Shown: positions 38,142-55,686 of the stretch, piece after piece
How the letters are laid out: the number at the start of each line of letters is the position of its first letter
How positions within the stretch are numbered: position 1 is the first letter of the stretch
Origin: Hallerella porci
GTDB lineage: Bacteria > Fibrobacterota > Fibrobacteria > Fibrobacterales > Fibrobacteraceae
Reading direction: 5' to 3'
Length of the DNA stretch: 64,000 bases
Assembly: GCF_003148885.1 (NCBI RefSeq)
Contig: NZ_QGHD01000001.1
Span: forward strand, 62,001 to 126,000
The notes under the pieces: generated by a model
Database searches by the model: none
What the model was told of the DNA's origin: nothing
Seen by the model: the letters and a program-made list of their open reading frames with translations, nothing else
Translations under genes and position numbers: made by a program

Positions 38142-39578
38142 ATGAATGTCCTGTTGGCAGATGCGGACAGGAAAATGTTAGACCAGGTAGCTTCTGCCTG
38201 GTCTCTTGCTGACGCATCCCTTTTTACGGTATCCGATTCGACAGCTCTCTTCAACACGATTGAAGAGAATCTCATCGATTGCGCTTTCGTTGACATCTCG
38301 TTGCTTTTGCACAAAGATGTCGATGTTATCAGTTTTCTCAAATCGCACAATCCCGAAGCGGAAGTGGTTTTGCTCTGCACCCCGCAGACTGCGAAAGAAG
38401 CGGAAAAAGCGATTTCGCACGGTGCGGCTTCGTATTTGGTAAAGCCTGTTGCCACTCGCACTCTCGAAGATGTCGCAAAAAAGTATCAGCAAGGATTAAA
38501 AAATTCAAGCAATTACCGCGAACTCCAAGATCATCTCTTGGAAAATCTTCTCGGCGATACACCGGGAATGCAAAAAATTTTGCGGCTTTTATACAAGGTT
38601 GCGCCGACGACGAGCTCTGTTCTCATTACCGGCGAATCGGGCTCGGGCAAAGAATTTTTAGCGCGGATTGTGCACCGCTTATCGAAGCGTGCGAACGAAC
38701 CTTTTGTCGCCGTTAACTGCAGCGCCATTCCCGAAAATTTAATCGAAAGCGAACTCTTCGGCAGTAAAAAAGGAGCGTTCACCGGCGCCGCAGACAAGAA
38801 AGGACTTTTCGAAGAAGCGAACGGCGGCACTCTTTTCTTAGACGAAATCGGCGAACTTTCGCAGGCGACGCAAGTCAAACTTTTACGTTTCTTGCAAAGT
38901 CACGAAACGCGGCGCGTCGGCGATACCGAAACGCGTTATTTGGATGTGCGAATTCTCGCGGCGACGAACGCAGATTTGGCGCAAGGAATGGCGAACAAAA
39001 CATTCCGCGAAGATTTGTATTACCGCTTAAATACATTTCACATCAACGTCCCACCGCTTCGCGAACGGCGCAGCACGATTCCGAATCTCGTCAAATATTT
39101 CATTTTAAAATTTGAAAAAGAAGAAAATAAAGTCATTCAAAAAATTGAGCCCGCAGCCCAGATGGCGCTTGCGACTTACAATTATCCGGGGAATGTTCGC
39201 GAACTCGAAAATATCATTGAGCATGCGGTGGTGCTTTCGGAAAATGGCTGCATTCGCTTAGAAGATTTGCCCGATGAATTGAGCCTCGCTCCGATGCAGC
39301 GCAAAACGGATTTGCTTCTTCCGGCAAAGTCATCGATTGCGGTAAATGCGAATCTTCCAGAAATCAATTCTACACAAACTAACTTATCCGCAGAAACGCC
39401 GAAAGCGTTGGAATATAACGCGGCGAGTGAATTTTTAACCTTAGATGAATTAGAAAAGCAACATATTTTGCGGGCACTTGATTTGTTCAAAGGCAACAAG
39501 ACCGAAGTCGCCGAAAAATTGGGCATTAGCCGCGCGACTCTTTGGCGAAAACTCAAAGATCACAAAATTGAAATTTAA
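38142..39578 (+). CDS. NtrC-family sigma-54-dependent response regulator
   Basis: The 478-residue protein has a receiver (1-115), an AAA+ domain (~137-365) and a Fis-type helix-turn-helix (~435-478: GNKTEVAEKLGISRATLWRKLKDH). The AAA+ motifs are Walker A ITGESGSGKEFLAR, the sigma-54 contact loop KKGAFTGA, Walker B GGTLFLDEIGEL, and the arginine-finger region EDLYYRLN. The receiver keeps its phosphoacceptor Asp (CAFVDIS) and Lys (YLVKPV), but the usual acidic pair is ADADR, with Ala at one position, so phosphorylation control may be altered. It would activate sigma-54 promoters; two such promoters are in this window at 53605 and 55385. Whether this regulator acts there is speculation. Confidence 0.92.
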   Translation: MNVLLADADRKMLDQVASAWSLADASLFTVSDSTALFNTIEENLIDCAFVDISLLLHKDVDVISFLKSHNPEAEVVLLCTPQTAKEAEKAISHGAASYLVKPVATRTLEDVAKKYQQGLKNSSNYRELQDHLLENLLGDTPGMQKILRLLYKVAPTTSSVLITGESGSGKEFLARIVHRLSKRANEPFVAVNCSAIPENLIESELFGSKKGAFTGAADKKGLFEEANGGTLFLDEIGELSQATQVKLLRFLQSHETRRVGDTETRYLDVRILAATNADLAQGMANKTFREDLYYRLNTFHINVPPLRERRSTIPNLVKYFILKFEKEENKVIQKIEPAAQMALATYNYPGNVRELENIIEHAVVLSENGCIRLEDLPDELSLAPMQRKTDLLLPAKSSIAVNANLPEINSTQTNLSAETPKALEYNAASEFLTLDELEKQHILRALDLFKGNKTEVAEKLGISRATLWRKLKDHKIEI

Positions 39579-52252: not shown

Positions 52253-53029
52253 TTAAATGCCGTAGCAATTCTTGGTATTTTTTCGAACTTGTTCCATTAA
52301 ATCTTCGACGGAAACATTTTGCACTTTCGCAAGGACTTCGCCGATTTGCGGAATCATGCCTGCGTGGCTTACGAGTCCGCGGAAGGGAACCGGCGCAAGA
52401 TAAGGAGAATCCGTTTCGAGAAGCAAACGGTCAAGTGGAACATGCGCCGCGGCTTCGCGGACAGAGGCTGCGCTTTTAAAAGTTAAAATGCCGGTGAAAC
52501 CGATGAAAACGCGACAGGGGAGTTTGAGAACTTCTTCGACAAAGTTTGCGCTCGCGGTGCAACTGTGCACATGCAAAGTGGCGCCGTTTAAATTCGCATT
52601 GCGTAAAACGCTCAGAGAATCTTCTTCGGCTTCGCGGAGATGCAGCACAAACACTTTGTGAAACGGTAAACCGATTTCTAATTGACGCTCAAAAACTTCG
52701 CGTTGCTTTTCGTGCGTTGCTCCTTCGTAGTGATAATCAAAACCGATTTCGCCGATGCCGACAGTTTTCGGACGCGCCCACAAACGCTTTAATTTTTCTT
52801 CGGTTTCGGCAGAGTAAGCATCCGCATTTTCCGGGTGCACGCCAAAAGAAGCATAAACTTCGGGATAATCGTCCGAAATTTTTTCGGCGTAAGCAAATGT
52901 CGGCTCTTCACAAGAAACATGGATGAGCGCATCCGGTTTCGGCGAAACGGAATTCCACCAAGCGTCAAATTCAATTTCCGACGCTTCGGTGTAAGCGTCC
53001 ATGTGGCAGTGCGTATCGACAAAATTCAT
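52253..53029 (-). CDS. tatD: TatD-family metal-dependent hydrolase/DNase
   Basis: The 258-residue TIM-barrel enzyme shows FVDTHCHMDAY (metal His-x-His), GIGEIGFDYHYE (Glu), FVLHLREAEEDSL (His), ATLHVHSCT (His) and LLLETDSPYLAPVPFRG (Asp). It is a likely 3'-5' DNase or deoxyribonuclease of the YcfH/TatD type. The start overlaps the greB stop (ATGA). The final Cys-containing NTKNCYGI is near the usual end of the family. Confidence 0.92.
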   Translation of the reverse strand: MNFVDTHCHMDAYTEASEIEFDAWWNSVSPKPDALIHVSCEEPTFAYAEKISDDYPEVYASFGVHPENADAYSAETEEKLKRLWARPKTVGIGEIGFDYHYEGATHEKQREVFERQLEIGLPFHKVFVLHLREAEEDSLSVLRNANLNGATLHVHSCTASANFVEEVLKLPCRVFIGFTGILTFKSAASVREAAAHVPLDRLLLETDSPYLAPVPFRGLVSHAGMIPQIGEVLAKVQNVSVEDLMEQVRKNTKNCYGI

Positions 53030-53496
53030 GTGTAAGAAATCTCGATAATGCTGTATTCAATCGTTCCGCGCGGAACGGTAATCGGGACAATGTCGCCTTG
53101 TTTTTTTCCGATGAGCGCCATACCCACGGGAGAACTCACGCTGATTTTCCCGGCGAGCGGGTCAATTTCTTGGACGCCGACGAGAGTGTAAACGCGGCGT
53201 TTGCTGGTTTTGCGGTCTTGCAAAGTGACCGTTGCCCCAAAACGAATCGAGCCATCGGCAGGTGCCGCTGTCGAAACGACTTTTGCGTGATCGAGAATTT
53301 TATCCAGTTGACGCAACCGACGATCGATATCGCGGAGCCTCATTTTGCCATAAGTATAAGCCGCATTTTCGGAGCGGTCGCCTTCTGCCGCAGCAGCGCC
53401 TACTTGACGCTGCATTTCGGGGCGTTCCACAAATTTGAGGCGCTTCCATTCCTCCATCAATTTGTCGAAGCCTTCTTGAGAAATAAAATCAGACAT
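53026..53496 (-). CDS. greB: Transcript cleavage factor GreB-like
   Basis: The 156-residue protein has an N-terminal coiled coil with the catalytic acidic tip (EGDRSENAAYTYGKMRLRDID) and a C-terminal FKBP-like domain (VGVQEIDPLAGKISVSSPVGMALIGKKQGD). The YGKxRLRxIDRRLRQL signature is that of GreB rather than GreA (which has GDLxENAEYxAAKE). It rescues backtracked RNA polymerase. It overlaps tatD by four bases and a repeat element lies just upstream. Confidence 0.92.
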   Translation of the reverse strand: MSDFISQEGFDKLMEEWKRLKFVERPEMQRQVGAAAAEGDRSENAAYTYGKMRLRDIDRRLRQLDKILDHAKVVSTAAPADGSIRFGATVTLQDRKTSKRRVYTLVGVQEIDPLAGKISVSSPVGMALIGKKQGDIVPITVPRGTIEYSIIEISYT

Positions 53497-53501
53497 AAAA
53501 C

Positions 53502-53600
53502 AAATTTAAATTAGGAATGAGGAGTTAGAAATAAGAAAGGGCGGTAATGTGCGGCTACAGCGCAGCCGTGCGTACTTACACTTAATTCCTAATTAAATTT
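53502..53600. repeat. About 99-bp inverted-repeat element between greB and the exported-protein locus
   Basis: AAATTTAAATTAGGAAT (53502-53518) pairs with ATTCCTAATTAAATTT (53585-53600) with one bulged base. Inside is GCGGCT-ACAGCGC-AGCCG. It shares ATTAGGAATGAG and the GCACGGCTGC word (reverse) with 15437-15470. It lies directly before a sigma-54 promoter, so its arms may also serve as an activator site; more likely it is a dispersed element. Confidence 0.6.
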
Positions 53601-53604
53601 ATAT

Positions 53605-53621
53605 TTGGCATGATTCTTGCA
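53605..53621 (+). promoter_or_regulatory. Sigma-54 (-24/-12) promoter
   Basis: TTGGCATGATTCTTGCA matches the consensus TTGGCAYG-N4-TTGCW at all key positions, with GG and GC ten bases apart. The expected start (about 12 bases after GC) is near 53632, only two bases before the ATG at 53634. It lacks an evident -35/-10 alternative. Confidence 0.85.
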
Positions 53622-53633
53622 TAAAAACATTTG

Positions 53634-54089
53634 ATGAATACGAGAATTTTACAGATTGCATTTTTTATCGCTGTGTTTGGTTTGAGTGCAGCGAATGCTC
53701 GGTCTTTGCCCGAGGCCGATGTGGGAAGCCCTGCGGAAAACGCAGAAATAAAGGGACAAAACGCACACGACGAAAATTCTTGGGAAGAAAAACGCGCAGA
53801 ACGACGTGCGGCGCGTGCCGAGTTGCTCGCACGAATCCGCGAAAGTTCTGCGCAAGAAAAGGCTTCGGTGCGAGAAGAATTGCAAAAAAATCGGAACGAA
53901 AATTCTCAAATGAGAATAGATTTCCCGAAAAATGAAATGCGCCCGCAACGCGAAAATCGGCATCCGATGGAAAAAATGGAAAATGAGCGCAGCCCGATGC
54001 AAGATCCGATTTGGGAAGAAAGGCGCGAACCGATGCGACGCGATCCGATGCCGCCTCCGCCGCCAGAATTTGGCGATCCCGATTTTTAA
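53634..54089 (+). CDS. Small exported charged Met/Arg-rich protein
   Basis: The 151-residue protein has signal MNTRILQIAFFIAVFGLSAANA. The mature part is highly charged and helical: EEKRAERRAARAELLARIRE, SAQEKASVREELQKN, then a Met/Pro/Glu/Arg-rich tail (PMEKMENERSPMQDP, EPMRRDPMPPPPPEF). The helical portion looks like a Spy/CpxP/ZraP-type periplasmic chaperone, but no LTxxQ motif is present. The ATG lies just 12 bases after a sigma-54 promoter; no ribosome site is evident, so the mRNA would be nearly leaderless. A three-base gap separates it from the next gene. A second small exported protein with the same promoter geometry lies at 55414. Confidence 0.72.
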   Translation: MNTRILQIAFFIAVFGLSAANARSLPEADVGSPAENAEIKGQNAHDENSWEEKRAERRAARAELLARIRESSAQEKASVREELQKNRNENSQMRIDFPKNEMRPQRENRHPMEKMENERSPMQDPIWEERREPMRRDPMPPPPPEFGDPDF

Positions 54090-54092
54090 TTC

Positions 54093-55376
54093 ATGCGCTT
54101 TGGGGTTTTTGCTTTTTTCTTTTGTTGTTTTCTGTTTTGTGGAAACGGAGCGTTTGCGAGTGCCGTTCAAGATTCGCTTTTTGAAAAAGCCTTGGACGCA
54201 GAAAGCGCAGGCGATGTGGTAAAAACCATTGAACTTTTAGAAAAAGCCAATTCGTTTTCGGGAAATTACAACGACGAAATTCAGCAAATTCTTTCGGAAT
54301 ATTATACGGCGCTTGGCATCGTCAAAGAAGATGAAAATGAAAAAGAAAGAAATTGGCATTTGCTTTCGCGCGTTGAATTTGTCGGTTTAAAATACGATGA
54401 ATACGGCGATTCTTTAGGCGCTAACGAATATTCGGGCGAAGCGTATTTTCAAGTCGGCGCAGAATATGAATTGCATCGCGGAAAATATCTGCATCTTTTT
54501 TCGCTCGGCTTTGCATCGGATTTTTTTCTCCGCGAAAATGAAACCGTTTTTGATACGAGTCGTTGGGCGTTTACGCCTTCGTTCGAATACACACTCGAAG
54601 GTGAAAAATTTGTGCTGAGCGTGACCGCTGACGTAACGATTTCCGAAGAAGAAAACGCAGTCGTTTCGGGAAGTCTTTTCTTGGAACGCGATTTTTATTC
54701 GACGAAAAATTTTCGGGCGGGAACTTCGGATTTTGGATTTGTAAATGGCAACGGACGGATGCGTTTGAAAGTCGGAGGCTTTGCAGAATATCAGCCGCCA
54801 CGCGGATTTCGTTCACGCGTTTCTTTGAGCGGGCGATTTGACCGCGACACTTCGGTTTGCGCTTATTTTTGGTATGCAGCACCGCCGAATGAAAATTTAG
54901 GAGAATGGAATCCGTTTGAAAATCCGAATGAAAATGGATTCGAAAATTTGAATGGAAATGCCTTTGAAAATGACAGTGAAATTTCGCAAGATTCTCTCCG
55001 CGAACGTTATTATTTCGGGCGCAATTTAAAACTTGGACCCGAATTGAATTGGCGATTTGGTTACCGCTTTGACGAACATTTTTCTCTCGATTTTTTCAGC
55101 CAAATTTTTTGGGCGATGAATCCGCTTCCCGATAGATGGAAATCGTTTCGAGCAAATTCCGAAAACGGAGAAATTGTCGAATCGTCGTGGCATCGAAAAC
55201 AGCTTCTCGGTTCCGCGCGGTTGCAGGGAAATTTTCGCGGGAAATTTTTTGGAACTTATCTTTCCGTTGGCATGTCCTTTCGCCGATTTTTGGGACTTCC
55301 GTCCGATCATCCCGAATTTTATTCTTATGCGTATCGCCTCGGCGAAATAAGGCTTGGCGCCACTTTCCGCTATTAG
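54093..55376 (+). CDS. Exported TPR-like/beta-barrel protein of unknown function
   Basis: The 427-residue protein has signal MRFGVFAFFFCCFLFCGNGAFA. Residues ~25-75 look like a TPR-type helical pair (SLFEKALDAESAGDVVKTIELLEKANSF). The remainder alternates hydrophobic and polar residues in strands (SRVEFVGLKYDEYGDS, YFQVGAEYELHRGKYLHLFSLG, KLGPELNWRFGYRFDEHFSLDFFSQIFW) and ends LGEIRLGATFRY, a C-terminal aromatic typical of outer-membrane barrels. It is likely co-transcribed with the gene before it from the same sigma-54 promoter. A second sigma-54 promoter follows nine bases after its stop. No known family was recognised. Confidence 0.7.
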   Translation: MRFGVFAFFFCCFLFCGNGAFASAVQDSLFEKALDAESAGDVVKTIELLEKANSFSGNYNDEIQQILSEYYTALGIVKEDENEKERNWHLLSRVEFVGLKYDEYGDSLGANEYSGEAYFQVGAEYELHRGKYLHLFSLGFASDFFLRENETVFDTSRWAFTPSFEYTLEGEKFVLSVTADVTISEEENAVVSGSLFLERDFYSTKNFRAGTSDFGFVNGNGRMRLKVGGFAEYQPPRGFRSRVSLSGRFDRDTSVCAYFWYAAPPNENLGEWNPFENPNENGFENLNGNAFENDSEISQDSLRERYYFGRNLKLGPELNWRFGYRFDEHFSLDFFSQIFWAMNPLPDRWKSFRANSENGEIVESSWHRKQLLGSARLQGNFRGKFFGTYLSVGMSFRRFLGLPSDHPEFYSYAYRLGEIRLGATFRY

Positions 55377-55384
55377 AAAAAAGT

Positions 55385-55401
55385 TTGGCACGGAATTTGC
55401 A
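55385..55401 (+). promoter_or_regulatory. Sigma-54 (-24/-12) promoter
   Basis: TTGGCACGGAATTTGCA is a near-perfect consensus (TTGGCACG-N4-TTGCA) with GG and GC ten bases apart. The 12-nt distance to the following ATG (55414) is exactly that of the promoter at 53605. Confidence 0.88.
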
Positions 55402-55413
55402 AATCATTTCGGC

Positions 55414-55686
55414 ATGAGAATGGTTGTTGTTTTGGTGTTTTGTTTTTTCTCGGCGTTGTGGGCGGAAAATTCAACGATTTCGTTAGACGAAAAATTAGCG
55501 AAACGGCAATTTTTTATCGGGCAAATCGCTGCGCGTATTCGTACTCTTCCGCGGGAATCGAAAATGCAAATGCTTCAAATGCGGGAAAGGAAAATGCCTA
55601 GGGAAAATCGCGAATGCAAAGAACGGATGCGCGAAATGAAAAGAAGGGAAGATTTTCGCCCAAAATTTCCGGAGAAAAAGCTCTGA
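55414..55686 (+). CDS. Small exported Met/Arg-rich protein
   Basis: The 90-residue protein has signal MRMVVVLVFCFFSALWA. The mature part is KLAKRQFFIGQIAARIRTLP, then SKMQMLQMRERKMPREN, ECKERMREMKRREDF and the tail KFPEKKL. It shares with the 53634 product the ARIR motif, heavy charge and clustered Met. This resembles small periplasmic Spy/ZraP-like stress proteins, though no family motif is conclusive. The ATG lies 12 nt after a sigma-54 promoter, so the mRNA is nearly leaderless; a second ATG six bases in would leave an 8-nt leader. An in-frame upstream start was discarded because it lies within the promoter. Confidence 0.65.
   Translation: MRMVVVLVFCFFSALWAENSTISLDEKLAKRQFFIGQIAARIRTLPRESKMQMLQMRERKMPRENRECKERMREMKRREDFRPKFPEKKL

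Follow-up and report, generated by a model that had tools for sequence, protein, structure and literature searches.

Sigma-54 elements placed against start codons in Hallerella porci and other Fibrobacterota: a candidate leaderless promoter class

Leaderless mRNAs are known from many bacteria and bypass normal ribosome recruitment, and few bacterial promoters are gated as tightly as those of sigma-54. In Campylobacter jejuni every reported leaderless mRNA lies behind a sigma-70 TAnAaT box, with poor conservation from one species to another (PMC3847290), and the leaderless starts of Sinorhizobium meliloti are all AUG (PMC3616915). The motif of leaderless transcripts in Bradyrhizobium japonicum is an extended -10 (TGnTA); according to that paper, leaderless genes have had no specific promoters described, and in its accessible part the RpoN motifs form a set separate from the leaderless motif (PMC4842269). 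The promoters assigned to leaderless mRNAs in PMC3847290, and in the accessible part of PMC4842269, are of the sigma-70 type. A literature search in which few subscription papers were covered returned no description of a conserved sigma-54 leaderless class, although individual cases may be known, and no map of transcription starts for Fibrobacter. Here we describe two sigma-54 elements that lie directly before start codons in a 64,000-nt stretch of the Hallerella porci genome (referred to as the window), and their relatives elsewhere in the Fibrobacterota.

Two sigma-54 elements and the genes behind them

The features of the locus are collected in Table 1. A first-pass annotation of this DNA had noted that both elements fit the -24/-12 consensus with GG-N10-GC, that exactly 12 nt separate each from an ATG, and that neither ATG has a visible Shine-Dalgarno site. 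Inspection of the sequence agrees on all of these points: the match to the consensus is near-perfect, and the gaps are TAAAAACATTTG before the ATG at 53634 and AATCATTTCGGC before the ATG at 55414. The two proteins encoded behind these ATGs are small and highly charged and have signal-peptide-like N-termini, and their reading frames offer no better start.

Table 1. Features of the H. porci locus in window coordinates
Feature	Position	Strand	Remarks
greA-type gene, divergent from gene 1	53026..53496	-	Activator gene holds this upstream position in relatives
Sigma-54 -24/-12 element of gene 1 (TTGGCATGATTCTTGCA)	53605..53621	+	Homologous elements upstream of gene-1 homologues
Predicted gene-1 transcription start, G 53633 or A 53634 (0-1 nt leader)	53633..53634	+	From initiator position of leadered promoters
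Gene 1, secreted, charged protein of 151 aa	53634..54089	+	Predicted; family founder, 80/111 family genomes
Gene 2, TPR-like helices and predicted 14-strand outer-membrane barrel, 427 aa	54093..55376	+	Structure prediction
Sigma-54 -24/-12 element of gene 3 (TTGGCACGGAATTTGCA)	55385..55401	+	Kept in four congeners, 11-nt spacing
Predicted gene-3 transcription start, A of ATG	55414..55414	+	From initiator position of leadered promoters; pyrimidine C at 55413
Gene 3, secreted, charged protein of 90 aa	55414..55686	+	Predicted

Because each element abuts its start codon, there would be no leader that can hold a ribosome site. Gene 2 begins 3 nt past the gene-1 stop, also without a Shine-Dalgarno site, and is probably translationally coupled to gene 1, as coupling to the leaderless AUG would be the simplest route to its translation. 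The gene-3 element begins 8 nt past the gene-2 stop.

The predicted structure of gene 2 (mean pLDDT 72) has the CymA and OmpG porins as its nearest folds, and no sequence family or match was found for it in Pfam, NCBIfam or PDB sequences. Its TPR and barrel architecture would fit a Slam protein, but there is no sequence match and the best folds are those of the two porins, and we do not claim membership. A Spy/CpxP-like identity was considered for genes 1 and 3 from their composition, and no family matched. From their predicted location, a role of the products in the cell envelope may be proposed.

An inverted repeat (AATTAGGAAT ... ATTCCTAATT, window 53509-53600) lies between greA and gene 1 and is perhaps a small repeat element; other genes too have similar motifs nearby, among them htpG on its upstream side (L005).

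Both window sites are exact matches to the sigma-54 pattern. With one mismatch allowed, the pattern is not above chance in the window alone (3 matches, with 1.85 expected from shuffles), and the case thus rests on genome-wide and comparative data.

Distribution and conservation of the close layout

The H. porci genome (2.85 Mb in 78 contigs) encodes a full RpoN of 505 aa, with AID, core-binding and DNA-binding domains, and five activator proteins with a strong Sigma54_activat domain and a GAFTGA motif. Genome-wide, TTGGCNNGNNNNTTGCW has 12 matches versus 2 for the reversed pattern, and TTGGCAYGNNNNTTGC has 9 versus 0 for the reversed control. Further TTGGCNNGNNNNTTGCW matches precede the genes for PII, htpG, glutamine synthetase, grpE, groES, hsp20 and spoVG, and the start codons of these targets are at least 34 nt from the element, each with a Shine-Dalgarno site. 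ATGs present 4-9 nt past the elements near PII, hsp20 and other genes were not accepted as starts, since a conserved start with a Shine-Dalgarno site is found further down. Only the two window genes have the close spacing in this genome.

Across the Fibrobacteraceae we note that consensus sigma-54 promoters precede the main chaperone genes (dnaK, grpE, groES, htpG, clpB and hsp20) and likewise spoVG and the genes for PII, glutamine synthetase and an RpoD-like sigma factor (L003, L005, L007-L010 and L012 in the window genome, together with loci in other genera). This suggests that the heat-shock regulon is run by sigma-54 in this family.

A profile of gene-1 homologues places the gene-1 family in 80 of 111 family genomes; many of the loci are from related Fibrobacter species and so are not independent. 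Among the 36 assignable loci the distance from element to ATG is 11 nt in 30, 12 nt in three (including the window) and 13 nt in one. The two deviating homologues have spacings of 33 and 43 nt, and the close layout can therefore be lost. Two more homologues, in another genus, keep the 11 nt with GT replacing GC in the -12 box. Gene 3 is detected only in its own genus and in one other genome, and its element is kept in four congeners at 11 nt. By this comparison the 12 nt seen in the window departs by one base from the usual 11.

The pattern TTGGCAYG-N4-TTGC-N12-ATG, in which the ATG is 11 nt after TTGCN, has 91 matches in 168 Fibrobacterota genomes versus 0 for its reversed form. Such a control addresses the layout as a whole, not its spacing by itself; the argument from spacing derives instead from conservation and from the bimodal distances described below. 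The counts in the window by themselves would fit chance, with the elements as functionless sigma-54 look-alikes that lie near start codons. That explanation is contradicted by the reversed controls, both in the genome and across the phylum, and by conservation of the layout across genera, and we give it almost no credence.

The first-pass annotation had named element loss in relatives as grounds for refutation, and this is not seen, with 11-13 nt in 34 of the 36 gene-1 loci and the gene-3 element present in the four congeners. Its points on the 12-nt spacing have to be modified. The close layout does recur throughout the phylum, but relatives mostly have 11 nt and less often 12 or 13; the conserved feature is thus this spacing of about 11 nt, and not the exact 12-nt twin.

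Unrelated genes have the layout in Candidatus Fibrimonadaceae, where the 11-nt form precedes flgG, a flgF-like gene, flgK and a gene whose product has a FlgB-like N-terminus. Pfam supports the first three and makes no call for the fourth, which is probably flgB. The flagellar proteins align with their families beginning at the first ATG, and since homology fixes the protein starts of flgG, flgF and flgK, doubt about the start codon is removed for these genes. Judged by the genes that carry it, the close layout is a class and not a single gene family.

Four loci in other genomes (L336, from an unassigned rumen bacterium, L407, L408 and L414) have the 11-nt layout before a secreted-protein family with the N-terminus MRKTIYIIAVFLLALS, and in a Rickettsiales genome (L370) the layout also stands before a flgE/F/G-type gene; the close class may thus extend beyond the Fibrobacterota. 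When the GTDB genome collection, of which Fibrobacterota are a very small share, was scanned with a stricter pattern, 23 of the 80 titled loci among the matches listed were Fibrobacterota by title. Many of the non-Fibrobacterota matches do not open a gene, and those in Aquificales were set aside as the ATG at 11 nt is followed by a Shine-Dalgarno site and a better ATG.

Two other arrangements of sigma-54 sites were observed. Five near-identical sites are clustered at both ends of a genome's single contig (G002:C1, at 3647, 6966, 8141, 3123020 and 3126339), each preceding a small ORF with a Shine-Dalgarno site, and resemble a tandem gene family. In L137 (G007:C11), and also in G007:C41, the unit of a short tandem repeat contains the -24/-12 consensus (TGGCACGATTTTTGCA), forming an array of promoter-like elements.

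Transcription starts and Shine-Dalgarno signals

Fibrobacteria are listed as having a CCUCC-containing anti-Shine-Dalgarno sequence (PMC10783764), and in Fibrobacteres a Shine-Dalgarno signal can be detected, though it is less obvious (PMC3155529). The leadered sigma-54 targets (dnaK, groES, htpG, PII and others) have at least 32 nt from element to start. Shine-Dalgarno matches of at least 4 nt are present in 46/46 of them, compared with 12/76 close-spaced starts and 11% of random positions, and the rate in the close class is thus near chance. When starts were assigned automatically at 108 sites from 13 genomes, the distances were bimodal: one group clusters at 9-12 nt, and the other lies at 30 nt or more and mostly has a Shine-Dalgarno site, while two cases fall at 13-29 nt.

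Only about half of the 46 window genes have a Shine-Dalgarno match, and its absence alone is therefore a weak argument. Translation without such a site seems possible in this organism, and the sigma-54 elements could be real while an upstream promoter, of the sigma-70 type or acting by read-through in the case of gene 3, makes the mainly translated mRNA, with a leader that lacks a Shine-Dalgarno site. Gene 3 starts 37 nt after gene 2, and read-through into it is possible. We consider this scenario unlikely, because the conserved 11 nt before gene 1, gene 3 and the flagellar genes would be purposeless if the sigma-54 transcript were not translated, and because a Shine-Dalgarno site is present in every leadered sigma-54 target tested.

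The position of the transcription start can be approached through 62 leadered sigma-54 promoters (those of chaperone, PII, glutamine synthetase, spoVG and sigma-factor genes). After TTGCN these have a pyrimidine and a G at positions 11 and 12 (36/62), or this pair displaced by one position, and A-rich sequence comes next, such that a pyrimidine-purine initiator is found 11/12 or 12/13 nt after the element. We note that these promoters share an initially transcribed sequence, pyrimidine-G-(A)-AA at 11-14 nt after the -12 element; conservation of this kind behind a sigma-54 element is unusual.

The close class has a pyrimidine at position 11 in 71 of its 76 distinct sequences, and the A of the ATG stands at position 12. 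The A of the ATG thus occupies the inferred +1 site, and close-class mRNAs should start 0-2 nt before the AUG. Gene 1 reads T-G at positions 11-12, predicting a 5'-GAUG or AUG end, and for gene 3 the C-A falls at positions 12-13, predicting 5'-AUG. The first-pass annotation had placed the sigma-54 start almost at the ATG, and the +1 of the leadered promoters does fall on or beside its A. In C. jejuni, sigma-54 starts scatter 8-13 nt from the -12 motif; an initiator 12-13 nt after the element is compatible with this range, which is measured from a slightly longer motif (PMC3847290). With a scatter of a few nucleotides, the leader could reach about 4 nt, or a smaller share of the starts could fall within the AUG. 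From the position of the start site we infer that close-class transcripts are leaderless.

The start codon itself could be questioned in gene 3 and its homologues, where a second in-frame ATG lies 6-9 nt downstream; were a downstream in-frame codon the true start, the leader would be short and ordinary. This appears very improbable, as the basic residues of the signal peptide would be lost with the Shine-Dalgarno site still missing, M1 is invariant in gene-1 homologues, which mostly have no second ATG nearby, and the flagellar proteins fit their families from the first ATG.

We regard it as likely that both elements are true sigma-54 promoters, each fused to a start codon, with genes 1 and 3 leaderless and gene 2 reached by coupling. 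An NtrC-family activator would switch on sigma-54 RNA polymerase at both elements, and RNA would begin at the A of the AUG or 1-2 nt earlier. Genes 1 and 3 would then be translated from leaderless mRNAs, and gene 2 through its coupling to gene 1.

A candidate activator and comparison with described systems

In Fibrobacter, gene 1 has an activator gene as its immediate upstream neighbour. The activator carries an AAA+ domain, a Fis-type HTH and a weak GAF-like N-terminus, and its gene is itself preceded by a Ser/Thr-kinase-like gene. Of 36 gene-1 loci, 33 show the activator C-terminus immediately before gene 1, and four congeners of the window genome are among these 33. The window-genome orthologue is L060, one of the five activators, on contig C6, with 63-67% identity over the full length (complete copies); it too is beside a kinase-like gene, and greA takes the upstream place in the window. 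From this orthology L060 is the likely activator of the window promoters. A plausible scenario is that an ancestral locus of kinase, activator, gene 1 and gene 2 was split in the window genome. An alignment of the upstream regions shows the end of the activator coding sequence and no clear shared palindrome.

The window also encodes an NtrC-type response regulator (receiver, AAA+ and Fis HTH domains; 38142-39575, + strand). It was set aside as the cognate activator because the Fibrobacter neighbour of gene 1 matches L060 far better.

More tentatively, and at less than even odds in our estimation, the Fibrobacterota may use a dedicated class of promoters whose sigma-54 initiator doubles as the start codon, tying activator-gated transcription to leaderless (5'-AUG) translation. 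If so, envelope and flagellar genes would be set apart, at the level of translation, from the leadered chaperone and nitrogen genes that have Shine-Dalgarno sites and use the same sigma factor. A conserved fusion of this kind on unrelated genes, beside leadered targets, would provide a natural side-by-side test of the purpose of leaderless translation, and transcription starts and start codons would be jointly predictable from sequence in a phylum for which our search found no start-site map.

The elements resemble classical sigma-54 (RpoN) promoters in having a GG-N10-GC element of the TTGGCACG-N4-TTGCW type, with RpoN and GAFTGA activators encoded, and differ in that those of the window abut the start codon whereas the other sigma-54 targets of these genomes are leadered. 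With the leaderless transcripts of S. meliloti and B. japonicum they share a start exactly at the AUG, predicted in our case (PMC3616915 and the accessible part of PMC4842269), but the promoter is sigma-54 and not the extended -10 given for B. japonicum in that part of the paper. As in the leaderless mRNAs of C. jejuni (PMC3847290), there is an ATG start, no Shine-Dalgarno site and a promoter box at a fixed short distance; unlike those mRNAs, the promoter here is of the sigma-54 type and the layout is conserved across genera.
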